DNA of 64,000 nucleotides, from positions 2,170,001 through 2,234,000 of the forward strand of contig NZ_CP056122.1 in assembly GCF_018219455.1 (NCBI RefSeq). Direction: 5' to 3'. A model generated the notes under the pieces. It made no database searches. It was not told the DNA's origin and worked only from the letters and a program-made list of their open reading frames with translations. Both the position numbers and the translations under genes were made by a program. This DNA comes from Moritella sp. 5. GTDB lineage: Bacteria > Pseudomonadota > Gammaproteobacteria > Enterobacterales > Moritellaceae. Positions 12,586-60,695 of this stretch are shown here, in pieces (position 1 is the stretch's first letter; each line of letters starts with the position of its first letter).

Positions 12586-13527
12586 ATGAAACGGATTTTT
12601 ACATTTTTCACTCTATGTTTAATTGTATTTAGTAGTCAGGCTAAAGGCTTCATGAATAGTTCGAGCTATAAGGGCTACACAGAAACGAAATATCCCATTG
12701 TTTTAGTCCATGGGTTGTTTGGTTTTGATTCCATTTTGGGTATTGATTATTTTTATGGTGTTACTCGTGCTCTAAGTAGAAGTGGTGCTGAGGTGTATGT
12801 AGCCCAAGTATCTGCGGCGAATACTACCGAAGTTCGTGGCGAGCAGTTATTAGCACAGGTTGAAGAGATTTTAGCGGCTACTGGTGCTGATAAAGTTAAC
12901 TTAATTGGTCACAGCCATGGCGGTCCAACATCGCGTTATGTGGCATCTGTAGCGCCACAATACGTGGCGTCAGTAACGAGCATTGGTGGTGTGAATAAAG
13001 GTTCACGTGTTGCAGATATTTTACGTGGAGAGGTGCCAGAGGGTTCGGTATCTGAGAAATTAATAGCTTCTATGGCTAATGGCTTAAGTAAGTTAATTAC
13101 TTTTCTTTCTCGTGGAGGGAAGCTACCACAAGATACAGTTGCTGCATTAGAAGCGTTAACAACTAAAAACTCACTAAAATTTAATGAATCGTATCCAGAA
13201 GGTGTGCCTACAACCGCATGTGGTGAAGGTGATTATGTTGCTGGGAATGGGGTTTACTATTACTCATGGAGCGGTAGTTCTAACTTTACTAATGTGTTAG
13301 ACCCAATGGATTTAGCGCTTACTCTGACTGGTAAGGCTTTTAATGTTCCAAATGATGGCCTTGTTTCTTCGTGCAGTTCACGCTTAGGTAAAGTAATTCG
13401 CGATAATTATAGAATGAATCATATGGATGAAGTTAATCAAACTTTGGGTCTTCATCATTTATTTGAAACTGATCCTAAAACTTTATATCGTCAACATGCT
13501 AACCGTTTAAAACTACAAGGTTTATAG
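12586..13527 (+). CDS. Secreted triacylglycerol lipase, Pseudomonas-type (family I)
   Basis: This 313-residue alpha/beta hydrolase has a signal peptide (cleavage near SSQAKG). The oxyanion segment VLVHGLFGFDS and nucleophile elbow GHSHGG (Ser near 109) are visible. A likely catalytic Asp lies in VPNDGLVSS and a His in the LGLHH segment. Two cysteines (near TACGEG and SSCSSR) could form the disulfide of subfamily I.1/I.2 lipases. It would hydrolyse triglycerides outside the cell after type II secretion. The foldase gene follows after two bases, as is typical. Confidence 0.93.
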   Translation: MKRIFTFFTLCLIVFSSQAKGFMNSSSYKGYTETKYPIVLVHGLFGFDSILGIDYFYGVTRALSRSGAEVYVAQVSAANTTEVRGEQLLAQVEEILAATGADKVNLIGHSHGGPTSRYVASVAPQYVASVTSIGGVNKGSRVADILRGEVPEGSVSEKLIASMANGLSKLITFLSRGGKLPQDTVAALEALTTKNSLKFNESYPEGVPTTACGEGDYVAGNGVYYYSWSGSSNFTNVLDPMDLALTLTGKAFNVPNDGLVSSCSSRLGKVIRDNYRMNHMDEVNQTLGLHHLFETDPKTLYRQHANRLKLQGL

Positions 13528-13529
13528 AA

Positions 13530-14402
13530 ATGAAAAAGATCGTATTAACGCTGGTAGTTTTAATCGTAGTCGTTACTGCGATCTTTATCTATACGGATAA
13601 CACGAATAAGCAAATGCAAGCGCAATCGTTCCAGTCAAAATCACAGCAGGATACTGCTATTGATTCAACATTTGATCGCGATACATTTGAATATTTTTTA
13701 TCGGGATTAGGTGAGGTTGAGTTGGATGATTTACAAGCGAAATTTATACAGTTTAATTCGCAGCGTCCTGCTGACTCACAAATAGATAAGGCATTATTTC
13801 AGCAATATATTAACTATAAAACCTATTTACAGACGCTAGAATCTAATGCTAGCTCTGATGAATTTGGTTTAGAGGATCTGATGGCGCTAAATGATCTATT
13901 ACTTGCTGCTCAGCTTAAGTTTTTTACACCTGAACAACAAAAAGATCTGTTCGCAGACGAAAACCAACTTAGAACGATGACATTGAAAAAACTAGCACTC
14001 CAGCAAGTCGCAGCATCGGAAGAGGAGTTTGATGTACTATGGCAACAAGAATTACAGTTACTTCCTGAAGAAGAACAGGTAGTGTATAAAAATGCGGCCT
14101 TAATGGGGTCGTTAGCAGATACGAAAGGGTTGGATACGCAAGAAAAGTACTTAATACGTCAAGATCTGGTGGGGGATGAAGGAGCACAACGTTTAGCTGA
14201 ATTAGATGAAAAAAATAATGCGTTTAGTACCCAGCTTGATGATTATTTAGTTGAGCGCCAAGTGCTAATGGCGGATGACAACTTAACGGATGAAGAGCTT
14301 GAATTCGCGATAACAGACTTACGTGAGGTCCGTTTTTCTACTGCACAATTGCGTAGGATTAAAGCATTGGAGCGCATTCATGATGTTAATACAGAATCAT
14401 AG
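13530..14402 (+). CDS. lifO: Lipase-specific steric foldase (Lif/LipB)
   Basis: This 290-residue protein has an N-terminal membrane anchor (about 4-23) and a periplasmic, acidic, almost all-helical body. It contains the foldase motif FDRDTFEYFLSGLGE (family RxxFDYxLSxxGE). The later YLIRQDLVGDEGAQRLAELDE segment matches the mid-protein Lif signature R..xxG.eAA..L...E. It folds the upstream lipase into its active state before secretion. The position directly after the lipase (two-base gap) supports a dedicated pair. Confidence 0.92.
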   Translation: MKKIVLTLVVLIVVVTAIFIYTDNTNKQMQAQSFQSKSQQDTAIDSTFDRDTFEYFLSGLGEVELDDLQAKFIQFNSQRPADSQIDKALFQQYINYKTYLQTLESNASSDEFGLEDLMALNDLLLAAQLKFFTPEQQKDLFADENQLRTMTLKKLALQQVAASEEEFDVLWQQELQLLPEEEQVVYKNAALMGSLADTKGLDTQEKYLIRQDLVGDEGAQRLAELDEKNNAFSTQLDDYLVERQVLMADDNLTDEELEFAITDLREVRFSTAQLRRIKALERIHDVNTES

Positions 14403-21812: not shown

Positions 21813-23150
21813 GTGAATATACTAAAAAATGTAATAACAACAACTTGCCTCACTTGTGTTATGAGTGCGTCTGCACTTGCCGACAGTGATATTTACCTTA
21901 CTAATAACTCTAACCAGACTATGTCTATTCAAGTTAACCATACCGGTTCAGATTTACTTGAAGAAGGCGCGGAATGGAAACAATATGTGCAAACACTTAA
22001 ACCATGGGAAACTAAAATGGTATTAAGTTTTAATCGCTGGAAAGGGGTTAAGTCTGGTGATACTTATCAATTCGAAACACTTGTAACTAATGAAAATGGC
22101 GAGTCGCTGTCTTTGCTACAACAAGTGAAAGGATATTGGTATAAATCAACACTTGATCATGGTGCGAGTGCCAATGATGTTGCGCTAAACTGGGCGGATG
22201 ATCGTGATACTTACCGTTATCAATCGCAATATAACAGTAACAGCAAGAGTACTGAAATCGCGTTTAAAGCGAGTGCAACTGGCCGTTATGATGATATTTA
22301 TTACAGTATCACACCGCAAAAAATTGATGAACAGCCTGTAGCAGACGCAGGTACACTCAAAGTCATGTCATATAATGTCTGGGCTCTGCCTGTGATTGCA
22401 AAGCACATCGGTGACCGTTTTCAGGAAATTCCGAAGCATTTAAAAGGCTATGATGTACTCATGCTACAGGAAGTCTTTGCTTCTGGTCGTGATGCATTTT
22501 TGCGAGATCTTGCTAAAGAATACCCGTATCAAACGAAGATGTTAGCTTCTCCTGGGATTAATATTTACGATGGTGGTGTGACTATTGTGAGTCGCTATCC
22601 AATTGTTAATGAAGGGCAGTACGTCTATCCCGATTGCTCTGGTACAGACTGCTTTGCTGATAAAGGCGTAAATTATGCTGAAGTGATCAAAAATGGTCAG
22701 GCGTACCATGTATTAGCAACCCATACCGCGTCGTTTGATACTGATACCGCACGTGAATACCGCCAACGTCAATTCCGCCAGATGCGCAATTTTGCACAAG
22801 CGCAGAATATTCCAGCCACTGACACAGTTGTCTACGGTGGTGATTTTAATGTGAATAAGCTTAAATTCCCAACTGACTATCACCAGATGTTTGTGAACCT
22901 TAGCGCTGATGAACCGCAATATGCAGGTTATACAGAGTCAACGTTCGACCCGCGTATTAATGATTATGCAGGAAGTGCACTATCGGGTGGTGAAAATATC
23001 GAATATCTTGATTATGTTGTTGTCAGTAATGAGTTTGCTAAGCGAAATGACAATATAAACACTGTCAAAATACCGCGTACAACGGTTGCTAGTTTATGGA
23101 AACATTGGAATCTATCCGACCATTTCCCTGTTAAAGCAGTGATACGTTAA
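21813..23150 (+). CDS. Secreted sphingomyelinase-like phosphodiesterase (endonuclease/exonuclease/phosphatase fold)
   Basis: This 445-residue protein has a signal peptide (cleavage near ALADSD). A beta-rich N-terminal domain (about 25-165) precedes the DNase I-like catalytic domain. Catalytic residues are recognisable: MSYNVW (Asn), LQEVF (metal Glu), ATHTAS (His), GGDFNV (Asp/Asn) and LSDHFPV (Asp-His). Neutral sphingomyelinase C proteins share this pattern, so it probably cleaves sphingomyelin or a related phospholipid extracellularly. It uses a GTG start six bases after AAAGGA. Its TAA overlaps the ATG of the foldase-like gene (TAATG), indicating coupled translation. Confidence 0.82.
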   Translation: MNILKNVITTTCLTCVMSASALADSDIYLTNNSNQTMSIQVNHTGSDLLEEGAEWKQYVQTLKPWETKMVLSFNRWKGVKSGDTYQFETLVTNENGESLSLLQQVKGYWYKSTLDHGASANDVALNWADDRDTYRYQSQYNSNSKSTEIAFKASATGRYDDIYYSITPQKIDEQPVADAGTLKVMSYNVWALPVIAKHIGDRFQEIPKHLKGYDVLMLQEVFASGRDAFLRDLAKEYPYQTKMLASPGINIYDGGVTIVSRYPIVNEGQYVYPDCSGTDCFADKGVNYAEVIKNGQAYHVLATHTASFDTDTAREYRQRQFRQMRNFAQAQNIPATDTVVYGGDFNVNKLKFPTDYHQMFVNLSADEPQYAGYTESTFDPRINDYAGSALSGGENIEYLDYVVVSNEFAKRNDNINTVKIPRTTVASLWKHWNLSDHFPVKAVIR

Positions 23151-24118
23151 TGCGGTTACCTTTACTATTAATAAGCGTTGCCTTTATGGGCAGCGTTTAT
23201 TTCTTCATCACCAATGAAAATAAACTGAACTCAGTTGAGCAAGAAAGTGCATTATCTAAAATCGTAAGTTCAACAATACAACCGACAGACATGGCATCGA
23301 ATCAAGCTAAAGAAAAGATGCACGTTAAAGAACAGATGCAAGTTAATGAAAATATGCCCGAGCAAGATACCTCATTGCAAGGCACACAAGGTCAGACGCT
23401 AATGGCGGCGATAACGTCATTTTGGCAGCAATGTCGCAGACATAATAATTGTGATAAATTGTTAGCCAAACAGCGGTTGCTACTTGATGATGATCGTTAT
23501 CAGTTGTTAGTTAACTTTCCTGTGAACCAGCAGGAAGAGCAACGTATGATGGGGGAATCGTTAATCAGTCAGGATGCAAGTTTGGCGGATAAAATCGCCA
23601 ATGTTAAAGCGATTAGAGAGCAGGTGTGGGGTGACGATGCAGCGCTGTTATTTCAGCAGCAAGATACCTATTATGACTACCGTTTATCGTTATCGGATCC
23701 TGATAGTCGATTTAGCCAGACTCATAACGCGGATGATTTTATCAATGCATACAACACTATGTTGGCAGAACGGGCTAATGACTTAGATAGCTTTGCGTTA
23801 AGTTCTGATACCGCCAAATATGAAGAGGCATTGCAGTTAATCCCACCGTCTATGCCTGAAGATGAAACAGCCAGAATCAAGGCTGATCTGGCTTCGCAAT
23901 ATCTCACCGCTAGCGAACGACAATCTATTGTTAACCGAGAGCAGCAAGTGGATAAGCAAGAGCAAGAAATAACGGATTACCAGCAAGGATTAAATGAACT
24001 TGAGGTAACACTTGCTAATGAACGAGCAACATCAAAGGAAACCATGAATGATGAAGATTGGCAGGTTTATAAAGCGGAACGTTTATATCAATATCGTCTT
24101 AACTTTTTTAGTTTTTAG
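23150..24118 (+). CDS. Lipase-foldase (Lif)-like periplasmic protein coupled to the sphingomyelinase
   Basis: This 322-residue protein has an N-terminal membrane anchor (about 4-20), a polar linker, then a long alpha-helical, Gln/Glu-rich body. The segment AIREQVWGDDAALLFQQQDTYY carries the R..xxG.eAA.lF..e...y signature of Lif foldases, and IPPSMPEDETARIKADLA resembles the following Lif region. The FDYxLSxxGE-type motif is not evident, so this is a divergent member. It overlaps the sphingomyelinase stop by one base. By context it should fold that enzyme rather than a lipase. That role is inferred. Confidence 0.68.
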   Translation: MRLPLLLISVAFMGSVYFFITNENKLNSVEQESALSKIVSSTIQPTDMASNQAKEKMHVKEQMQVNENMPEQDTSLQGTQGQTLMAAITSFWQQCRRHNNCDKLLAKQRLLLDDDRYQLLVNFPVNQQEEQRMMGESLISQDASLADKIANVKAIREQVWGDDAALLFQQQDTYYDYRLSLSDPDSRFSQTHNADDFINAYNTMLAERANDLDSFALSSDTAKYEEALQLIPPSMPEDETARIKADLASQYLTASERQSIVNREQQVDKQEQEITDYQQGLNELEVTLANERATSKETMNDEDWQVYKAERLYQYRLNFFSF

Positions 24119-24183
24119 TTTGTATTAAAAAGCTTAATGAAAAAGTCATGTTTCCTTCATGTTAACGGCGCAGACTAGATTAA

Positions 24184-24203
24184 CATCTGGGCTATACCAG
24201 ATG
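24184..24203. terminator. 7-bp inverted repeat between the foldase-like gene and the phosphodiesterase
   Basis: CATCTGG and CCAGATG flank a six-base loop, followed by TAATTTTG. It lies 65 bp after the foldase-like stop and 30 bp before the next start. It could be a terminator or a site controlling the downstream gene. Confidence 0.45.
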
Positions 24204-24233
24204 TAATTTTGTGAAGTCGACAAGGAGATGACC

Positions 24234-25991
24234 ATGAAGAAGACGATGATAATTGCGTTATTAACTGTTGGGGTAGGGATGCAAGTACCCTCTGTGTTAG
24301 CGGCCAATAAAGCCGTGTTATTGGGTATTGATGGGGTGCAATGGGAAAAAGTACAAATTTTAAATACCCCAAACTTTGATCGCTTAAATATCAACAAAGC
24401 GTATACGGGTGGTATGAAAGGTTATGACAATGAGCAGTTAACATCAAGTGGACCTGGCTGGGCGACAATTTTAACGGGTGTTTGGGTTAATAAACATAAC
24501 GTTGATACTAACAGTGCAGGTTTGGCTAATGCCGATTTTCCCAGTATTTTTAAACGCATTAATGATGCGAACCCGATATTAACTCAAGCGTCATTAGTGC
24601 ATTGGTCTCCGATTAATACGCAGTTTTTCACTCAAGATATTACTAATGTTGAGCGGGTCGAAAGTGGCATCAGTGATGCGGATGTAACGTCCGCGACAAT
24701 TAGTGAAATAAATAAAGGTACTGATTTTGTATTTGCACACTTAGATGACCCTGACCATCATGGGCACAGTACGTGTTTTGGTAGCGCTTATAACAAGAGT
24801 ATTATTACTGCTGATCAGCAATTGGGTGAAATCCTAGACGCAATTGAGTCGGCTGAAAGAAAAAGTGGCGATAATTGGCTGCTAATGGTAACGACAGATC
24901 ATGGTCGTGACAGCTTAGGTTGTGGTCATGGTGCGCAGAAGCTGAATCAAAAAACCATCTTTATCGGCAGTAATGAACCAGTTAATGCTGAGCTTACCGA
25001 GAAATCGGTTGGTGCAAATAATGATTTTTCAGGACTTTATGGTTACGCGGCACAAACGTCGATTGTACCGACTTTATTAACCCACTTGGGAATTAAGGTT
25101 GAACCAAAATGGAAATTGGATGGTCCATCACTTATCGGTGAGTTAGGTGTTCGTAAATTAGTGGCAAGTACTGATGGTCATTTACAGTGGATAAATGAGA
25201 GTGACGATGATATTCGCATTTATCGTAATGATATTTTGGTTGATATATTGTCTGCGCAAAAAAAATCGTGGCAAGACAATGCGAATACTCGGTTGGGTAT
25301 AGTAGATTATGTTCTTGCGAGTAACGCTAATCCAGTCGCTTTTCGAAATAATGTGATGGATGTAAATGCAGGGCTAAGTTGGAGCTTATCGCGAGGCTAT
25401 TTCTTCCGCAGTGATACGCAATATGTACGTTATAACAAAGTATTGGATAAAGCAGAAGATGGTTACCCTCGCGCTGTGAATGAGAGTAATTGGCCTGGTC
25501 TTGGTGCTTATCGTGAAAACCTTGTCGCCAGTTTCCATAAAGACAGTGACACGGCTTACTTCTTTACTCACGATGGACAATATTTATCTTACGACCTTAA
25601 TACAGACTCAGTGAGAGACGGTTATCCGAAAGCGGTTGACGCTACCACGTGGTCAGGGCTTGAAGCATATGCTGACAACATCGTTGCCACATTACGCTGG
25701 AAAGGTAATAAAGTTTATTTCTTCCTTGATGATGGAATTTATTTACGTTATGACTTAGTTAACGATAGCGTTGACAGTGGTTATCCAAAACCGATAAATG
25801 ATTCAACTTGGCCTGGTCTGGGGGCTTATGCACAACAGATTACGGCTGCCATTTATTGGGATGATACCCGAGCATATTTCTTCTTGGATGGTCAACGTTA
25901 TATTCGCTATAGTATAACGCGTGATCGTGCTGATAGTGGTTACCCTAAACCGACCAATGATAGTACATGGCCAGGTCTGTTAGGGATGTAA
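24234..25991 (+). CDS. Secreted type I phosphodiesterase (NPP/alkaline phosphatase superfamily) with C-terminal hemopexin repeats
   Basis: This protein is 585 residues with a signal peptide (cleavage near SVLAAN). The N-terminal 300 residues show the NPP metal pattern: GIDG near 32, a candidate nucleophile in SSGPGWATILTG, DDPDHHGH, TTDHGR and GHG. Residues of about 385-585 form four hemopexin-type repeats, each with an aromatic YFF...YxRY core and a DxGYPxPxNxSTWPGL end. AAGGAG at 24222-24227 fits ATG 24234. The ATG at 24228 overlaps the ribosome binding site and is rejected. Related animal NPP6/NPP7 act on choline phospholipids and sphingomyelin, but the substrate here is unknown. Confidence 0.82.
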   Translation: MKKTMIIALLTVGVGMQVPSVLAANKAVLLGIDGVQWEKVQILNTPNFDRLNINKAYTGGMKGYDNEQLTSSGPGWATILTGVWVNKHNVDTNSAGLANADFPSIFKRINDANPILTQASLVHWSPINTQFFTQDITNVERVESGISDADVTSATISEINKGTDFVFAHLDDPDHHGHSTCFGSAYNKSIITADQQLGEILDAIESAERKSGDNWLLMVTTDHGRDSLGCGHGAQKLNQKTIFIGSNEPVNAELTEKSVGANNDFSGLYGYAAQTSIVPTLLTHLGIKVEPKWKLDGPSLIGELGVRKLVASTDGHLQWINESDDDIRIYRNDILVDILSAQKKSWQDNANTRLGIVDYVLASNANPVAFRNNVMDVNAGLSWSLSRGYFFRSDTQYVRYNKVLDKAEDGYPRAVNESNWPGLGAYRENLVASFHKDSDTAYFFTHDGQYLSYDLNTDSVRDGYPKAVDATTWSGLEAYADNIVATLRWKGNKVYFFLDDGIYLRYDLVNDSVDSGYPKPINDSTWPGLGAYAQQITAAIYWDDTRAYFFLDGQRYIRYSITRDRADSGYPKPTNDSTWPGLLGM

Positions 25992-42986: not shown

Positions 42987-44450
42987 CTAACGGTAATACA
43001 GTTCATGCGACCAATCTGTGTAGGTAGCTTCAGGCATTTCTATTACAAATAGGCCATCGTTTTTAAATGGCATTGTTGCTGAAATCATCCATCCGTGTCC
43101 ATCGGGTAGCAGGTACTCATCAGGTCCTAATTCTGAATGATCATACATATAGATTTCATCACCATCTTTGATACAGCCGCTTTGCGGGCTTTTACGTCGT
43201 ATTTTTAAGTAATCAGCGGCATTATTTTCTCGTGCGTAGTAATAACCCGACAAATTCCAATTCCAAAAGTAATTCGAATAGTTACCTGTGAGTGATAGTT
43301 GGATGTAATCATCATCATGTACGCAAAATGCATTTTTAGGTATCCAAGTATCAAGTTTAAATTCTATCGATAACGGATTATTCATATCGGTGGTTGTGAT
43401 CCACTGCTCAGTATCAGCTTTAACGTAACTACCCGTATCTACGTGTTCAATTTTGATATTGTTGTACGGTGTGTTGCTTGGTCTAAAGCTTTGGGCTAGT
43501 GTCGTGTTATCAGCATATTCAAAAGCGGTTACAGGGAAATGATCTGAGTATTCATAAGCATAATATTTGTCAAGTGTACCTGATATTTCTACTTTCGGTG
43601 ATATCACATCGAGTATTTGGTTGTGCCAAAATTGAGGTTGTTGGTGATTCTTTTCAACCAAGATATAGTCGAGTAATTGACCTTTTAGGTTGGGATAACT
43701 GTCGTATGCTAACGCATTCACAGTTGGATCCCATGAATAGTCAGCACCAGCAAAACTGTCGGGTTCAGAGCTGTTTAAAGCTAATAACATTGAATTAAAT
43801 TCAGTTGAATTTTTGGCTACATTCAAATCGCCTGCAATGATGACCATTTCATTATTCGGGATGTTTTGTTGGGCGATATACTGGGTAATTTCTTCGAATT
43901 GTTGAGCTCGTATAGAGGCTGGATTTGAGCAACCGGGATCATCTGCCTGTACGTGTGTGGCGATAATATGGAATAACTTATTATCTTTCTTAATTTTGAT
44001 GTAAACAAAACCTTTTTGAGATAGACCGTCTGCGCCACAAGCATTGGAAAATATATGCTGTGCTTTGTACATTATCGGATAACGGCTCATCATAAATACA
44101 CCGCCATCTTCGGGGGTTGACGGACTCCAACTTCCGTCTGTGTTGTCCCAACCATTTATTTGTCGACCTAGAACAGGGGTGTAATAAGGGAAGCGTTCTT
44201 TTAATCCATCAGAGATAATTTGACTACTTTCATTATCAAATGCTTCGTTAAAAGAAACAATATCTGTGATGTCAAAAATGTTGGATTGTGTAAGAAGTTC
44301 CGCTCTTTTCGTTTGGCTGGTATGAAATAGTGTGCTTGAGAGCATATACACGTTATAACTCATTATTTTAGGTGGAGCCGTGTATTCCTCGGCGTTAATC
44401 ATCGAGCTTGTTAGTATAGGTGCAGCTAAAATTAGATGTTTAATATTCAC
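42987..44450 (-). CDS. Secreted sphingomyelinase C with C-terminal extension
   Basis: This 487-residue protein has a signal peptide (cleavage near SMINAE). The DNase I-like catalytic domain has MSYNVYM (Asn), FNEAFDN (metal Glu), ATHVQAD (His), AGDLNV and YSDHFPV. The SWDPTVN...YPNLKGQLLDYIL segment is characteristic of bacterial sphingomyelinase C/beta-toxin. Residues of about 320-487 form an extra beta-rich domain, as in the longer Leptospira-type enzymes. It probably hydrolyses sphingomyelin of host or prey membranes. It uses a GTG start. It is convergent with the pore-former operon. Confidence 0.87.
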   Translation of the reverse strand: MNIKHLILAAPILTSSMINAEEYTAPPKIMSYNVYMLSSTLFHTSQTKRAELLTQSNIFDITDIVSFNEAFDNESSQIISDGLKERFPYYTPVLGRQINGWDNTDGSWSPSTPEDGGVFMMSRYPIMYKAQHIFSNACGADGLSQKGFVYIKIKKDNKLFHIIATHVQADDPGCSNPASIRAQQFEEITQYIAQQNIPNNEMVIIAGDLNVAKNSTEFNSMLLALNSSEPDSFAGADYSWDPTVNALAYDSYPNLKGQLLDYILVEKNHQQPQFWHNQILDVISPKVEISGTLDKYYAYEYSDHFPVTAFEYADNTTLAQSFRPSNTPYNNIKIEHVDTGSYVKADTEQWITTTDMNNPLSIEFKLDTWIPKNAFCVHDDDYIQLSLTGNYSNYFWNWNLSGYYYARENNAADYLKIRRKSPQSGCIKDGDEIYMYDHSELGPDEYLLPDGHGWMISATMPFKNDGLFVIEMPEATYTDWSHELYYR

Positions 44451-52240: not shown

Positions 52241-54154
52241 TTATCTTAGTTTAAACTGACCCACAATAGCGACTAACTGCTCATTTGAACTTGCTAGATC
52301 ACGTGTACTATCCATCGTTTTCTCACCGTTCGTGGTAAGCTGATTAACCATACTTTGGATCATAGTCATGTTACGGTTAATTTCTTCCGTTACTGAGCTT
52401 TGCTCCTCAGCCGCTGTTGCGATCTGAATACCAAGATCGTTAATCTGCATTACTGATGTCGTCATTGAATCAAGATTATCATTTACGCTAGCAGTTGTTG
52501 TTGCTGTTTGTTGGCAACTTGCTTTAGTTATGTCCATAGCTCGGACAACAATGTCTGCACCATTTCGTAAACGAGTTAGCATTTCGTTAATTTCAGAGGT
52601 GCTTTGCTGTGTGCGTGCTGCCAATGTACGGACCTCATCTGCAACAACGGCAAAGCCACGACCTTGCTCACCAGCACGTGCGGCTTCAATTGCAGCATTC
52701 AATGCCAGTAAGTTAGTTTGGTCGGCGATTTCACCAATAACGCTTAATACAGTACTAATCTTATGGGTATCTTCATTCATTGTTTGAATGTTCAGAGCCA
52801 TCGCTTCAACTTCATTAACTAAGTCTGCAACACCATGTACAGCACCTTCTACTACAGCCTTTGATTGATGCGCTTCATCTGCCGATTTTTGAGTGAAGGT
52901 TGCTGACTGGGCTGCATTTTGAGCAACACTATCCGCTGTTGAACTCATTTCTGTTACTGCAACTACAACTTGATCTGTTTCACTTGCATGGTCGATTAAT
53001 ACTGTGTTGTTGTGTTCCGTTTGCGATCTTAATTGCTCAATACCAGATGAAATATGATCTGTTGATTGTGATATTTCTAACATCATATCTTGTAAGTTGA
53101 TCACGAAACGATTTACTGCTTCAGCTATTTGACCTAAATCATCATTACTATTTACAGCTAAACGTTGTGTTAAATCTGCATTACCTTGAGCAAGATCTTG
53201 AACTGTCGATTTTAACGCAAGAATTGGGCGATATAATCGATTAAGAGCGGCATATACGATTGCTGATGCTATAAGAATAAGTAAGAGGGCACTTAATGTG
53301 CTGTCTTTTAATAGCTTTTGTACTACTGCATAGTGAGCAGATTGGTCTACTGTGATGAGTAAATGCCAGCTTATCGAATCATCTAACTTGATGCTTTCAA
53401 AGTAGCTTACTTTATCAGCACCATTAACAGTGAAGTTTATTACGCCTTCATCTTTGTTTAGCATTTCTTGTTGTAGTTGCGAATAACCGCTATCATCAGC
53501 TAGCCTGCTTTGTCCTGGATTACGGATCTGCTCTGTTGATGCGATTGTGGTGCCTTGGTTATCGTGTAAGCTTGTTACCGCGTTGGCAAATGCTGATGCA
53601 CGAACCATCTCATTTAGCACACCTAACTCGATATCGGCAAGCAATACACCTTCAAGTTGACCATTTTTATAAAACGGTGAAGCAATACTAATAAGTAATT
53701 GTTTAGTTAGCGCATCTTTATACATTGCGGTAACGATCGTAGTACGCTTTTGTTGTGCTAGGATATACCAGTCACGTGTACGAGGATCGTAGCTTGCTAA
53801 ATCTCGTTTACCACTTGCTGCGCCATAAGAACGACCATCTTCAAAACCGACTACAATATCACTGGCTTTTGTCGCTGCGGTGATTTGTCGAACCATTAAA
53901 TGTAGTTGCTCGTCATCACGTGCTTGCGAAAAATCGGGTGCAGTCGCAATTAAACCTTCTTTAATAGTTTGAAACCAAGTGTTGATCTTTGCCGATGTGG
54001 TATCCACTTTTAATACAGAGTAATTATTGATATTACTCGACATTGAAGAAGATAACTGACGATAAGAAAATAAGTTAGAAATAGTTAAGGTTATTATTAA
54101 GAGCAGAATAATGACAGATATTATTCGCCCTTTAAAACTTGATAGAAAATCCAC
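52241..54154 (-). CDS. Methyl-accepting chemotaxis protein with dCache sensor (paralogue 1 of 4)
   Basis: This protein is 637 residues: TM1 (about 11-31), periplasmic dCache_1 domain (about 35-275), TM2 (about 287-306), HAMP, then the cytoplasmic signalling hairpin with tip [35 protein letters not shown] (in pieces). The amino-acid-binding motif of PctA-type dCache domains is complete: Y122, R127, W129, Y130, Y145, D147 and D174, each one residue off the PctA numbering I recall. An amino-acid attractant is therefore predicted. GTG start with AAGGG upstream. No C-terminal CheR pentapeptide. Confidence 0.93.
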
Positions 54155-54323
54155 GTGAACAAATACCCTTTAATGATTAGAAATCTTGCTATTCGACTGA
54201 TTTGCCAATATATATTCAGATTATGGCAATTTTTTGAACATCCTATCATTCATATGAAGGTTTCGGTAGGGTTTTGTAAGCTTATGTAACGTTAGTTTTG
54301 GCGTGAAGTTCTTGATTGTTGTT

Positions 54324-54368
54324 AAATATTTAACTTTGTGGCTATAAACGCCACAAAGTTAAATATTT
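54324..54368. terminator. 19-bp perfect hairpin between chemoreceptor genes 1 and 2
   Basis: AAATATTTAACTTTGTGGC and its exact reverse complement flank a seven-base loop, ten bases after the stop of paralogue 2. Each receptor gene therefore appears to be transcribed separately. Confidence 0.8.
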
Positions 54369-54378
54369 TATATTGTGG

Positions 54379-56292
54379 CTATTCTAGTTTAAATTGGCCA
54401 ACAATAGCTAATAGCTGTTCATTACAACTTGCTAGATTACGTGTGCTGTCCATGGTCTTTTCGCCATTTTCAGTAAGTTGATTAACCATGCTTTGGATCA
54501 TCGTCATATTACGGTTAATTTCTTCGGTCACCGAACTTTGTTCTTCAGCCGCTGTAGCTATTTGGATGCCAAGATCATTAATTTGCATGACAGAGTCAGT
54601 CATTGAGTCGAGGTTATCATTGACACTTGCTGTCGTCGCGGCTGTTTGTTGACAGCTTGCTTTAGTGATGTCCATCGCTCGTACAACCATATCGGCCCCG
54701 TTACGTAAGCGTGTAAGCATCTCGTTAATTTCAGATGTACTTTGTTGAGTTCTTGCTGCAAGTGTACGAACTTCGTCAGCAACCACGGCAAAGCCACGAC
54801 CTTGCTCACCTGCACGCGCAGCTTCAATTGCAGCATTTAATGCAAGTAGGTTAGTTTGGTCTGCAATTTCGCCAATCACACTTAATACTGAACTGATCTT
54901 ATGGGTATCTTCATTCATTGTTTGAATGTTAAGCGCCATCGCTTCAACTTCATTCACTAAGTCAGCCACCCCATGTACAGCACCTTCGACAACGGCTTTT
55001 GAGCTGTGAGCATCGTCAGTTGTTCGCTGAGTGAAGGTGGCAGATTGCGCGGCACTTTGAGCAACACTATCTGCTGTTGAGCTCATTTCTGTTACCGCAA
55101 CAACCACTTGATCTGTTTCACTTGCATGATCGATAAGTACTGAATTGTTACGCTCTGTCTGTGCTTTTAATTGCTCAACACCCATTGATATATGGTCTGT
55201 TGATTCTGATATTTCTAACATCATACGTTGTAAATTACTGACAAACGCATTCACTGATTCGGCAATTTGACCGAGGTCATCACGGCTATTCACCTCTAAG
55301 CGTCGAGTCAGGTCTGCATCGCCTTGTGCTAAGTCATAAACAGTCGCTTTTAAAGCCAGGATAGGTCGGTATAAACGTGAAAGGGCGATAAATATAATAA
55401 TCGAGGCAAGAATGACAAGTAATACATTGCTTATGATTGAGTTATTCAGGCTGTTTTGAACAGGTAAGAAAAGCACTGATTTATCAATGGTAACAATAAT
55501 TTTCCAGCTTGATTTATCATCTAATTGTAGGCTTGTATAGTAAACAATTTGGTTTATACCATTGTTTTCAAGTTCAAATGAGCCTGTATTATTTTCAAAA
55601 ATCTCTCTTTGAAGCCTTGTATAAGCACTACTATAAGATTGCATTTTGTTACCAATGACTTCTCGTTCATCTGTCGATGCGATTGTCATCGTATTGATAT
55701 CATATAGACTGGTAGTGGCTCCCAAAAATGCTGATTTGTTGATCATATCTTTAAGCATATTTAAGTTAATATCAGCTAATAGTACACCTTTAAATTGGCC
55801 ATCTTCATAAAAAGGTTCGGCAATACTGATGAGCAATTCACCAGAGATAGCATGCTTATAAATGTCGGTGATTACTGTCGTTTGATTTTGGCGTGCACTT
55901 TTATACCAAGCTCTTGTTCTTGCATCCAAGACAGATAATGGAATAAATCCCTCTAATGCGCTAAATGTACGCCCATCTTCATAACCTACAATTATATCAG
56001 TAGCTTTAGTGGAATTCGCAACTTGTTTCACCATGCGTAATGTCTGTTCATCGTCTCTCGTTATCGCAAAACTTGGTGCCGTCTGAGTTAATGCATCTTT
56101 AATGGTTTCAAACCAGTCGGTAATTTTATCAGTAGTACTTTGGACTTTTAATTTTGAGTATTGATCAATATTGTTTACCATTGAATTTGATAATTGCTTA
56201 TAGGAAATATAACTCGCAATTGTCAGTGAGGTTATCAATAATAAAATAACAACCGAGATGATTCTTCCTTTAAAACTCGCCATAAAGCCCAT
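54379..56292 (-). CDS. Methyl-accepting chemotaxis protein with dCache sensor (paralogue 2 of 4)
   Basis: This is a 637-residue receptor with the same layout as paralogue 1 and a nearly identical signalling domain. The ligand pocket differs: position 122 is Leu instead of Tyr and 147 is His instead of Asp, while R127, W129, Y130, Y145 and D174 remain. The specificity is therefore probably altered. ATG 56292 (AAAGGA upstream) is chosen because it gives exactly the length and N-terminus of the other three (FKGRIISV). The frame could be extended to 56325. Confidence 0.92.
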
Positions 56293-56516
56293 GAAATAAA
56301 ATCCTTTGAAATTATAGTTATTCATACTTTAATGATTAAAAATACGTATTCACTTTGTATAAATGTTTATTGGTGTGTGATAGTCAGCGGATGATATATA
56401 CAAGATAACTTGTTGTATATACTTAGTGTCGACAATTCAGTGAAAACTTACGATGGCTTACAATTGTAAGAAGAGCTTCAAACAATAATCACTTTTAAAT
56501 GGCCATTATTAAATCG

Positions 56517-56544
56517 GTAGACCTTCAAAATGATGAAGGCCTAC
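56517..56544. terminator. Hairpin after chemoreceptor gene 3
   Basis: GTAGACCTTC pairs with GAAGGCCTAC with one mismatch over an eight-base loop, just after the stop at 56556 on the minus strand. Confidence 0.6.
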
Positions 56545-56555
56545 ATCAAATCAAA

Positions 56556-58469
56556 TTATTGCAGCTTGAACTGTCCAACAATGGTAACCAGTTGATCATT
56601 CGTACTTGCTAGAGTATGTGTACTGTCCATGGTTTTTCCACCATTTTCGGTTAGTTGAGAAACCATGCTTTGAATCATTGTCATGTTACGGTTTATTTCT
56701 TCTGTTACTGAGCTTTGTTCTTCTGCTGCTGTCGCAATTTGAATACCGAGATCATTAATCTGCATAACTGAATTCGTCATAGAATCAAGACTCTCATTCA
56801 CACTTGCTGTTGTATCTGCGGTTTGCTGACAACTCAATTTCGTTGCGTCCATGGCTTTTACAACGGTATCTGCACCACTGCGTAAGCGAGTTAGCATCTC
56901 ATTAATCTCTGAGGTACTTTGCTGGGTTCTTGCCGCTAGCGTTCTAACTTCATCTGCAACCACCGCGAAGCCTCGACCTTGTTCACCTGCACGTGCCGCT
57001 TCAATCGCAGCATTTAGCGCGAGTAGGTTAGTTTGATCTGCAATTTCACCAATCACACTTAATACCGAGCTAATTTTGTGAGTATCTTCATTCATAGTTT
57101 GAATGTTTAACGCCATTGCTTCAACTTCATTTACTAAGTCTGCAACCCCGTTTACTGCACCTTGAACGACCGTTTTAGATTGGTGTGCCTCATCGGTTGA
57201 TTTTTGTGTGAAGGTTGCACTTTGCGCAGCACTTTGAGCCACACTGTCAGCAGTCGAACTCATTTCTGTTACTGCGACAACGACCTGATCTGTTTCACTT
57301 GCGTGGTCAATTAATACGCTATTATTGTGTTCTGTATGGGATCTAAGTTGCTCAATACCGCTAGAAATATGTGTTGTTGATTGCGATATTTCTAACATGA
57401 TTGTTTGGAGATTAGCAATAAAGGTATTTACCGCTTCAGCAATCTGCCCTAAATCATCTTTACTTGTTACTTCAAGTCGCTGGGTTAAATCGCCATTACC
57501 TTGCGCCAGGTCTTGAACCGTCGATTTCAGTGCGATGATTGGTTGGTAGAGTTTATTCAGACAAATGAATATTAACAAGGTCACAATAAGCGTCATTATA
57601 ATCGCAGTGATAAGCGAATCTTCTAAGCTGTCTGCGATCACAGCGTAGTGAGCCTTTTTATCTACCGTTACCAATATATGCCAGCTTAGCTGGTTATCAA
57701 GTTTAATTGAATCAAAATAGCTGATTTTTTCTTTGCCATTAACGGGATGGGTTAGCTTACCAGCGTCTCCTGTTAGCATTGCCTGTTGTAGTTCTGTTAG
57801 AGCACTATTGTCTGCAAGTTTTGATTTTCCTGGATCTTCTATTTTATCTGTTGACGCGATTATAGTGCCAGTCTCGTCAAATAGGCTAGTGCTCGCATGG
57901 TCAGATGCTGATGATTTAACGATATCTTCAAGTATGTTTAGCTCGATATCAGCAAGTAATACACCGACCAGTTGCCCATCTTTATAGAAAGGTTCGGCAA
58001 TACTCACTAATAAATTATTAGTCAGTGCGTCTTTATACATCGGGGTTATAATTGTTGTACCTGTACGTTTCGCGTCTTCATACCAAGCACGAGAACGAGG
58101 GTCGTAATCAGCGACATAACGAGTGCCTGTCATAGCACTGTACGAGCTGCCATCTTCAAACCCAACAAGAATATCCGTTGCTTTTGTTGATGCATTAATC
58201 TGTTGAACCATTAAGTTAATTTGGTAATCGTTATGCGGTTTAGCAAAGTCAGGAGCTGTTCCGATTAAACCATCTTTAATAGTTTGAAACCATGTGTTTA
58301 TTTTGTCTGACGTGCTATGTATTTTTAGTGTTGAGTAGCGGTCGATATCTTCTTTAATTAATAAAGACATTTGACGATAAGAAAGTAAGTTCGAAATTGC
58401 TAGCGTTGTAATAAGCAGTAACATAATAACTGTAATTATCCGGCCTTTAAAACTTGATAAGACATTCAC
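56556..58469 (-). CDS. Methyl-accepting chemotaxis protein with dCache sensor (paralogue 3 of 4)
   Basis: This 637-residue receptor has TM1, dCache_1, TM2, HAMP and a signalling domain. The pocket motif [13 protein letters not shown] and LLADIEL keeps all the amino-acid-binding positions, as in paralogue 1. GTG start with AAGGA nine bases upstream. A perfect sigma-28-type -10 (GCCGATAA on the minus strand, 58557-58564) lies upstream but lacks a convincing -35. The signalling tip is identical to paralogues 1 and 2. Confidence 0.93.
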
Positions 58470-58781
58470 GTGGGTACATCCTTATAATCATTAGTATCGG
58501 GAGTGTTAATGCGCATGATAACGCGACAACACTATCGTAATTACATTGTTATTAGCTTATCGGCAGGGGAAATAGACATCGCATTTTTAATGCCCAATAG
58601 TTGATCTTGGTCACTAAACTTTAGTATCTCTAATCATTAAGTATTAATGCATACATTGGGTTGGATTGAGTTTTGAGGGATTTAGAGTGGTTATATTTGT
58701 GAGGCTTTAGCGGGCGTTAGCAATGAATTAATGCGTTGTTCCAAAGTTGAATAAGGTTCAACGCATTGCTTAAAGATTTAT
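58470..58781. other. Intergenic region between chemoreceptors 3 and 4
   Basis: Contains the promoter of paralogue 3 and the terminator of paralogue 4. AATGCGTTG (58730-58738) pairs with CAACGCATT (58759-58767), and an alternative smaller stem GTTGAA/TTCAAC (58746-58762) lies inside. No gene. Confidence 0.5.
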
Positions 58782-60695
58782 TTATTTCAGTTTGAACTGG
58801 CTAACAATACTCATTAGCTGTGTATTACTACTTGCTAAGTCATGGGTGCTATTGAGTGTCTTTTCACTGTTACTTGTTAATTGCTGTACCATATGTTGAA
58901 TCGCGGTCATGTTACGATTAATTTCTTCCGTTACTGAGCTTTGTTCTTCTGCCGCTGTGGCGATTTGAATGCCAAGATCGTTTATTTGAAGTACTGATTC
59001 TGTCATTGAATCTAGGCTTTCATTCACACTTCCTGTCGTTTCCGCTGTTTGTTCGCAGCTCGTTTTTGTGGTTTTCATTGCTTGCACTACAGAGTCCGCA
59101 CCGCTACGTAATCGGGTTAGCATATCGTTAATTTCAGAGGTACTTTGTTGTGTTCTGGCTGCTAACGTTCGCACTTCATCTGCGACGACGGCGAATCCAC
59201 GACCTTGATCACCTGCTCGAGCAGCTTCAATTGCGGCGTTTAATGCGAGTAAATTCGTTTGGTCTGCAATTTCTCCAATGACGCTTAATACTGAGTTAAT
59301 TTTATTGGTATCTTCGTTCATGGTTTGAATGTTCAATGCCATCTTATCCACTTCTGTAACGAGTTCTGCAACGCCAAATACCGCACCTTTAACCACTTCT
59401 TTAGAACGTTTAGCTTCATCTGTTGATTTTTGTGTGAAGGTAGCCGATTGCGCAGCACTTTGAGCAACGCTATCTGCTGTAGAACTCATCTCTGTAATAG
59501 CAACAACAATCTGTTCTGTTTCCGATGCATGCTCTAGTAATACATTATTATTGTGTACCGTCTGCGAACGAAGTGCTTCAATACCATCTGAGATATAGGT
59601 TGTTGATTGTGATATGTCTAACATCATGCTTTGTAAATTAAGCGTGAATTTATTCACTGCGTCTGCAATCAGGCCTAAGTCATCATTGCTTTGAACATCG
59701 ATACGGCGGGTTAAATCAGCATTGCCATTAGCAAGATCTACAATTGTTTCTTTTAGTGTGAGGATAGGGCGATATAAACGGTTTAAGGATAATAAGCTAA
59801 TAATAGATGCCAGAATCACGAGGATGAATCCAGTGATAAGTGCGCTGTTTAAACCTTCTTCAATCTCGATAAAGTGAGAAGACTTGTCTACTGTGATAGC
59901 TACTTTCCAAGAAATAGTATCATTAAGGTTTAATGTTGTGAAATACGCAAGCGTTGTTTTCTTGTCTTGGCTAAATTCGAAAGTACCTTCTTCGTTACTT
60001 GAGATCATGTCTTTAAGTGGTGTCAATGTAGCATTAGCTGAGTCCATCGGCTTACCTACGATTTGACGTTCATCTGTTGACGCGATGGTCATGCCTGTCA
60101 TGTCATATAAATTAAGCGTGGTATCTGCAAATGATGAATTCTTAATAAAGTTACTTACTGTTTCTAAGCGAATATCAGCTAATAATGCCCCTGAAAATTG
60201 GCCATTATTATAGAAGGGTTCAGCAATACTTATCATCAATCCGCCCGTTGTAGCATCACTGTAAATACCGGTAATGATTGTAGAGCCTTTTTGTTTTGCA
60301 TCTTTATACCAGTCGCGAGTACGTGGATCATAGCTTTCTAAACTTAGCTTACCGTCTATGGCTGTAATTGCTTTACCGTCTTCATAAGCAGCCAAAATAT
60401 CATTTGCGTCGGTAGCGAGAAATACTTGTTTCACCATGAGTAATAATTGTTCATCATCACGAGGGATTGCAAAATCAGGCGCTGTTGCAGCTAAACCTTT
60501 TTTGATGCCTTGAAACCAACTATTAATTTTGTTGGCTGTGCTATCGACTTGTAGCTGTGAATATTTATCAATATTACCTACGATAGAAGTAGATAATTGT
60601 CGGTAAGAAATAAAACTCGATATCACGAGTGAGGAAATAACGAGTAATATCACTACTGTAATGATACGGCCTTTAAAACTGGATAAAAAATTCAC
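58782..60695 (-). CDS. Methyl-accepting chemotaxis protein with dCache sensor (paralogue 4 of 4)
   Basis: This 637-residue receptor is the most diverged of the four. The signalling tip reads [11 protein letters not shown] instead of GEQGRGF, and the flanking helices carry several substitutions. The dCache pocket keeps the amino-acid motif ([21 protein letters not shown]). GTG start with TAAGGA upstream. Upstream DNA to 61054 (359 bp) holds no gene and is AT-rich. Confidence 0.93.

Follow-up and report, generated by a model that had tools for sequence, protein, structure and literature searches.

Whether a membrane-anchored helper related to the lipase-specific foldases (Lif) could have taken on an enzyme of an unrelated fold is the question raised by a gene pair in Moritella sp. 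5. Lif is a textbook steric chaperone, and the passages of the literature drawn on here describe it together with lipases only. The stretch of DNA analysed (64,000 nucleotides, hereafter the window) carries a sphingomyelinase gene at 21813..23150 (+; GTG start, 445 aa), the proposed client, followed by a partner gene at 23150..24118 (+; ATG start, 322 aa), which encodes a membrane-anchored helical protein and is a candidate for a sphingomyelinase chaperone or foldase. The two genes are coupled, with the stop codon of the sphingomyelinase and the start codon of the partner sharing one base in a TAATG junction (23148..23152, +). The coordinates, gene order and one-base overlap all agree with a preliminary description of this locus, as does the separate location at 12586-14402 of an ordinary lipase/Lif pair, which consists of a lipase at 12586..13527 (+; PF00561, E 6e-20) and a Lif at 13530..14402 (+; PF03280, E 3e-32) and is used here for comparison. 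Three PF03280 foldases are present in the source Moritella genome, and the partner is none of them. A candidate intrinsic terminator at 24183..24204 (+) may close the two-gene unit, from a weak pattern scan that found 2 such sites versus 1.7 expected. Adjoining the pair, a gene at 24228-25991 (+) encodes a type I phosphodiesterase domain and three hemopexin repeats; genes of this type also lie beside the pair in three Moritella relatives (L004-L006), and no match lies beside it in a further locus (L007).

The product of 21813-23150 matches TIGR03395 over 286/286 model positions (E 7e-45), with a score of 153.6 bits that falls under the model's own cut-off of 248.2, and it matches PF03372 above the cut-off (E 4.5e-15). 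In addition, residues 176-444 are matched by seven PDB sequences of bacterial sphingomyelinases (E 1.4e-34 to 1.7e-25). Judged by its sequence, the product is a predicted secreted sphingomyelinase C with a DNase I-fold catalytic domain, the identity that had been assigned to it beforehand. A putative signal peptide (residues ~1-23) and a beta-rich N-terminal domain (residues ~24-165, its limits and nature as read from the sequence) precede the catalytic domain (residues ~180-445). Bacterial sphingomyelinase C enzymes (TIGR03395; PDB 2ddr, 3k55, 1zwx) have the catalytic domain in common with the client (residues ~176-444), whereas the additional N-terminal domain and the sub-cut-off TIGR03395 score set the client apart. 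The window also contains another, distant sphingomyelinase-like gene at 42987-44450 (-). Its 487-aa product matches PF03372 (E 3e-17) and is 27-31% identical to the client over the matched part; no partner adjoins this gene. A third sphingomyelinase-like gene occurs elsewhere in the source genome.

With the sphingomyelinase as query, a search across 394 genomes from the order yielded a clade of 31 enzymes (~56% identity or more), comprising 10 from Moritella, 9 from family f21, 1 from f5 and 11 from f25. Family f21 is probably Vibrio, since Vibrio sp. THAF64 carries the pair, and f25 is probably Aeromonas, its sequence being G+C-rich. The partner is the next gene downstream in all 31 clade loci across the four families; a survey of whether Lif-like genes recur beside sphingomyelinase genes in other genomes had been suggested in the preliminary description, and such recurrence is seen throughout the clade. 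The two frames overlap by 1 base in 10 loci and by 4 bases in 11, and are separated by a 15-base gap in 8; the remaining two loci have a gap of 176 bases and a nominal 61 bases, the latter (L077) with a frame-shifted partner start region. All 10 Moritella loci keep the TAATG-type 1-base overlap. Vibrio sp. THAF64 shows it too, and provides a 32nd pair that brings the total to 32/32 partners beside a sphingomyelinase. Co-inheritance is faithful: ten of the 11 Moritella genomes contain the partner, as they do the pair; in the eleventh (G005) the partner is missing, and the sphingomyelinase is represented only by a broken, distant paralogue. Genome G104 harbors nothing of the pair but an in-frame remnant (L102:3972-4685) in which approximately the first 50 sphingomyelinase residues are fused to approximately the last 190 residues of the partner; a split lipase gene lies nearby on the opposite strand.

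Outside the clade, 24 distant sphingomyelinase loci came up, and the 18 that were examined, some of them in the same genus, all lack a partner; these 18 represent 11 of 17 from the order-wide search and 7/7 further matches. The partner is no general companion of sphingomyelinases. True Lif loci have an adjoining lipase in 31/31 cases examined (of 41 PF03280 matches) and an adjoining sphingomyelinase in none. Neither in these 31 Lif loci nor in the 18 distant sphingomyelinase loci does the partner profile find a match, and where both the partner and the Lif profile match one locus, as in the window, L006 and L102, they do so through distinct genes. A class-wide search of 369 genomes with the family profile gave, outside the own genome, one weak match (L103, E 0.006), an unrelated-looking protein with no sphingomyelinase in the surrounding 2.1 kb.

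Five Moritella comparisons gave dN/dS of 0.13-0.33 for the partner, a sign of purifying selection and of a real gene. Its first ~25 residues (23150..23224, +) form a hydrophobic, anchor-like N-terminus, recognized by eye from the sequence and 23 aligned members, and are followed by a variable polar linker (residues ~26-75; 23225..23374, +) with gapped, poorly conserved alignment columns. An N-terminal anchor followed by a variable linker is also the arrangement of Lif, and both elements are present in the partner according to the sequence and the alignments. The next region (23375..23530, +) occupies the place of Lif MD1 and contains a C-x5-C pair (C95, C101), found in 15/15 non-f25 partners in the alignment of 24 and absent in the f25 branch, whose partners are ~260 aa long and lack the MD1 region. 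This region alone scores 0.1% against Lif, so its assignment to MD1 is weak. Residues ~145-183 (23582..23698, +), including the REQVWGDDAALLF motif, align with the extended helical domain (EHD) of Lif, and residues ~235-322 (23852..24115, +), which end at R..FF, align with Lif MD2. The helical body of the partner was read from the sequence and from DSSP on a low-confidence model.

The preliminary description had pointed to an R..xxG.eAA..F signature. The corresponding stretch, AIREQVWGDDAALLFQQ, is present in the partner. In an alignment of 20 members, W160 never varies, and G161, A164, L167 and F168 hardly do. With the f25 branch included (23 members), only W160 and L167 of these five remain nearly invariant, so that AIREQVWGDDAALLFQQ alone is not a diagnostic signature. 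The REQVWGDDAALLF motif was likewise set aside as a diagnostic signature, given that sequence places it on the EHD of Lif and structure on another part.

The relationship to Lif proposed beforehand is invisible to conventional HMM searches. A search of 23150-24118 against PF03280 gave no match, and neither PF03280 nor an NCBIfam lipase-chaperone model matched the partner of the window at E up to 1. PF03280 was also absent when nine single members were compared with Pfam at E up to 10, and, for 20 members, it was absent from the 25 families listed of 45; no lipase-chaperone model occurs among all 22 NCBIfam families matched by 23 members. A Lif HMM built in this analysis reached the partners at E 1.1 at best, the family profile, run against the source genome at E up to 10, recovered no Lif, and a PDB sequence search with the family profile did not find Lif. 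Queried with the partner, the HMM collections Pfam, NCBIfam, PADLOC and PHROGs returned nothing useful, and phage records gave no match.

Several features set the partners apart from Lif. Two papers (PMC7046727, PMC13381987) present the MD1 motif of Lif, RxxFDY(F/C)L(S/T)A, as highly conserved and indispensable for activity. Its loose core, [FM][DE]Y, occurs in 0/24 partners versus 14/21 Lifs. The strict motif was found in 0/21 Lifs of this sample and is therefore a weaker marker here than in those papers. The FDY core is missing from L053 and six other Lifs of the 21, so its loss is not confined to sphingomyelinase partners; the L053 protein (L053:1330-2076, f25) is a short PF03280 foldase of 249 aa that adjoins a lipase. 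The partners also lack the C-terminal Lif tail LRxxxFxxxExKR, as read from the Lif alignment, and end at, or at most ~12 residues past, R..FF, whereas Lif runs on into the conserved ExKR tail. A neighbouring family I lipase, as found for Lif, is not the case for the partners.

Likeness to Lif appears when whole alignments are compared. Comparison with hhalign of 24 partners against 21 PF03280 proteins of the same order gave a probability of 94.5% (E 8.4e-8) over 204 colinear columns. Without Vibrio sp. THAF64 the partner alignment still reached 92.0% (E 6.6e-7; 96.6% in a separate scripted run), and 30/30 random subsamples fell between 82.9% and 95.6%. The signal emerged only once divergent partners had joined the alignment, a Moritella-only partner alignment compared with five Lifs giving 1.5%. 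The f25 branch alone scored 5.0% against Lif and 96.9% against the other partners, with which it clearly forms one family. Taken singly, segments of the partner reached at most 22% against Lif (21.8% for residues 235-322, and 1.7-11% around residues 140-185), and both segments fall in order, on the EHD and then on MD2. The coincidence of the C-x5-C pair with cysteines of the Lifs L036 and L059 was set aside as evidence: when these two rows are removed, the C-x5-C region drops out of the alignment and the remaining match is 89.7%. These two proteins (L036:1165-2085 and L059:1225-2079) are neighbouring ordinary Lifs of one genome with C-x5-C in their MD1 region. Among 180 non-redundant proteins from the window and the other loci analysed, those ranked by the partner profile directly after the family members were L103 (17%) and then a Lif (6% over 215 columns); ranked by the Lif profile, two partners came after the Lifs with weak values of 8.8% and 4.5%. 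Overall, the alignment comparisons support the partner as a remote homologue of Lif at the profile level, a part of the earlier claim that stands.

The crescent-shaped MD1-EHD-MD2 fold of Lif was looked for in structure models of the partner, which were poor (pLDDT 53.7 and 58.0), the C-terminal MD2-aligned segment being their best-predicted part. For the full-length low-confidence model, 275 chains were aligned and the 50 listed include no Lif, which does not count against a relationship. With a trimmed low-confidence model, both solved Lif complexes (2es4 and 9g8u) were among the best 68 PDB chains in the Foldseek ranking, with Z 5.5 over 51 residues and 4.9 over 98, values no higher than those of unrelated chains, and the part of Lif matched by structure differs from the part aligned by sequence.

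Compared with known systems, the partner resembles Lif/LipB/LipH (PF03280; PDB 2es4, 9g8u) in that its gene adjoins that of the client, in having an anchor, a variable linker and a predicted all-helical periplasmic body, and in a profile similarity that runs colinearly through EHD and MD2. It differs from Lif in its client, a DNase I-fold phosphodiesterase rather than a lipase, and in lacking a PF03280 match, the MD1 motif and the C-terminal tail, as well as, in f25 partners, the MD1 region. Another enzyme with a helper, PlcH of Pseudomonas aeruginosa, is not known to be a DNase I-fold enzyme. PlcR accompanies this phospholipase C/sphingomyelinase (PMC3601568), and the PlcR1/PlcR2 helper gene, like the partner gene, follows that of a sphingomyelin-cleaving enzyme; by that description PlcH is unlike the client in being exported by Tat, and PlcR2 is unlike the partner in being secreted with PlcH as a heterodimer (PMC3601568). 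CpaB, the membrane-anchored, dedicated T2SS chaperone of the protease CpaA, is likewise an anchored protein encoded beside its non-lipase T2SS substrate in the account drawn on here (PMC4713064), and it is set apart by description, with a predicted SRPBCC-like domain and with CpaA surrounding CpaB (PMC4713064, PMC7542363). Sphingomyelinases do not occur in the PMC4713064 table of T2SS chaperones, established and putative alike; one of its entries is a hypothetical anchored protein encoded next to a non-hemolytic phospholipase C. Of the features in that paper's definition of a membrane-bound T2SS chaperone, adjacency and an anchor-like N-terminus are present in the partner, and the enzyme would be the substrate (PMC4713064). 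The preliminary description had spoken of a new chaperone-client class. This is somewhat too strong, as CpaB/CpaA is already a non-lipase T2SS pair (PMC4713064) and PlcR/PlcH offers a further precedent (PMC3601568); membrane-anchored T2SS chaperones are thus already known, and what stands is that no report of a sphingomyelinase as client of a Lif-like foldase was found in the open-licence literature.

Taken together with the location and conservation of the pair, we consider it rather likely that the partner serves the adjoining sphingomyelinase as a dedicated periplasmic chaperone anchored in the membrane and has a common ancestor with the lipase-specific foldases. Through translational coupling, both proteins would reach the periplasm together. 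The sphingomyelinase would pass the membrane by Sec, and the anchored helical body may grip the emerging enzyme and, by analogy with LipH/LipA, aid it into an active, secretion-competent fold, either sterically or by holding it. The type II secretion system would then export the enzyme while the chaperone remains in the membrane. A gene for the T2SS secretin GspD is present in the source genome, from which we infer that the enzyme is a T2SS substrate; the foldase action on the sphingomyelinase is likewise conjectural. A Lif-like partner made together with a sphingomyelinase in these marine bacteria suggests that the clients of such helpers probably came to include an enzyme of quite different shape. 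That the Lif fold is not tied to alpha/beta-hydrolase clients, with one branch having switched to a DNase I-fold phosphodiesterase while it kept EHD-MD2 and lost or replaced the MD1 motif, seems to us slightly better than an even bet.

The partner might instead be a dedicated anchored secretion chaperone unrelated to Lif, invented independently like CpaB/CpaA or PlcR/PlcH, with a profile likeness that stems from long amphipathic helices. The lack of any Lif match with HMMER and the absence of the MD1 motif and the tail would suit such an origin, as would the occurrence of this gene arrangement in further T2SS chaperone systems (PMC4713064, PMC3601568). Long helices by themselves score poorly, however: the helical families HemX and OEP gave at most 3.9% in 60 control comparisons, and HemX (20 rows), OEP (22 rows) and the sphingomyelinase itself reached at most 4.3% against the partner or the Lif profile. 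Reversed profiles gave 0.2%, and none of 200 fine shuffles came near the observed score (best 30.4 versus 62.1). Only coarse block shuffles, which keep true pieces in blocks of 8-24 columns, climbed as high as 75% in the best of 80, a value that favors the independent origin. The colinearity of the match over all 204 columns speaks for common descent, and we regard an origin separate from Lif as unlikely.

A different function is also conceivable: as an anchored inhibitor, the partner might hold back the activity of the phosphodiesterase within the periplasm, or it might control release of the enzyme in some other way. Sphingomyelin is not a usual bacterial lipid, so a need for immunity is not evident; homology to Lif points to folding, and the 18 distant sphingomyelinase loci do without a partner, even in the same genus in some cases. 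These points make an inhibitor quite improbable, even though the same gene layout would suit one, and in the available account of CpaB its C-terminal tail blocks the active site of the client (PMC7542363), which means that chaperone and inhibitor roles can be joined. Even less probable, to the point of being hardly credible, is that the genes are mere neighbours in no direct working relation, with the partner serving the envelope or another client. It is true that the partner diverges at about double the rate of the enzyme (median ratio 2.1), as would befit unconnected genes. Against this stand the 31/31 association in four families, the mostly overlapping or closely spaced frames and the joint loss; the distances of partner and enzyme also correlate over the 31 pairs (r 0.96), a value that shared ancestry alone would give as well.

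If the partner is indeed a chaperone descended from the stock of Lif, steric foldases would be a re-targetable chaperone family, and the clade sphingomyelinases would be predicted to fold or be secreted poorly when expressed alone. A Lif relative with an unrelated client fold would help to separate the parts of a foldase used for client recognition from those used for the folding action, and it asks whether MD1 is needed at all. The pair is a system that can be tested in laboratory strains. Elsewhere in the window, a row of four genes lies at 52241-60695 (-), encoding proteins of 637, 648, 637 and 637 aa; three of these were scanned, and all three are dCache-HAMP-MCP chemotaxis receptors.
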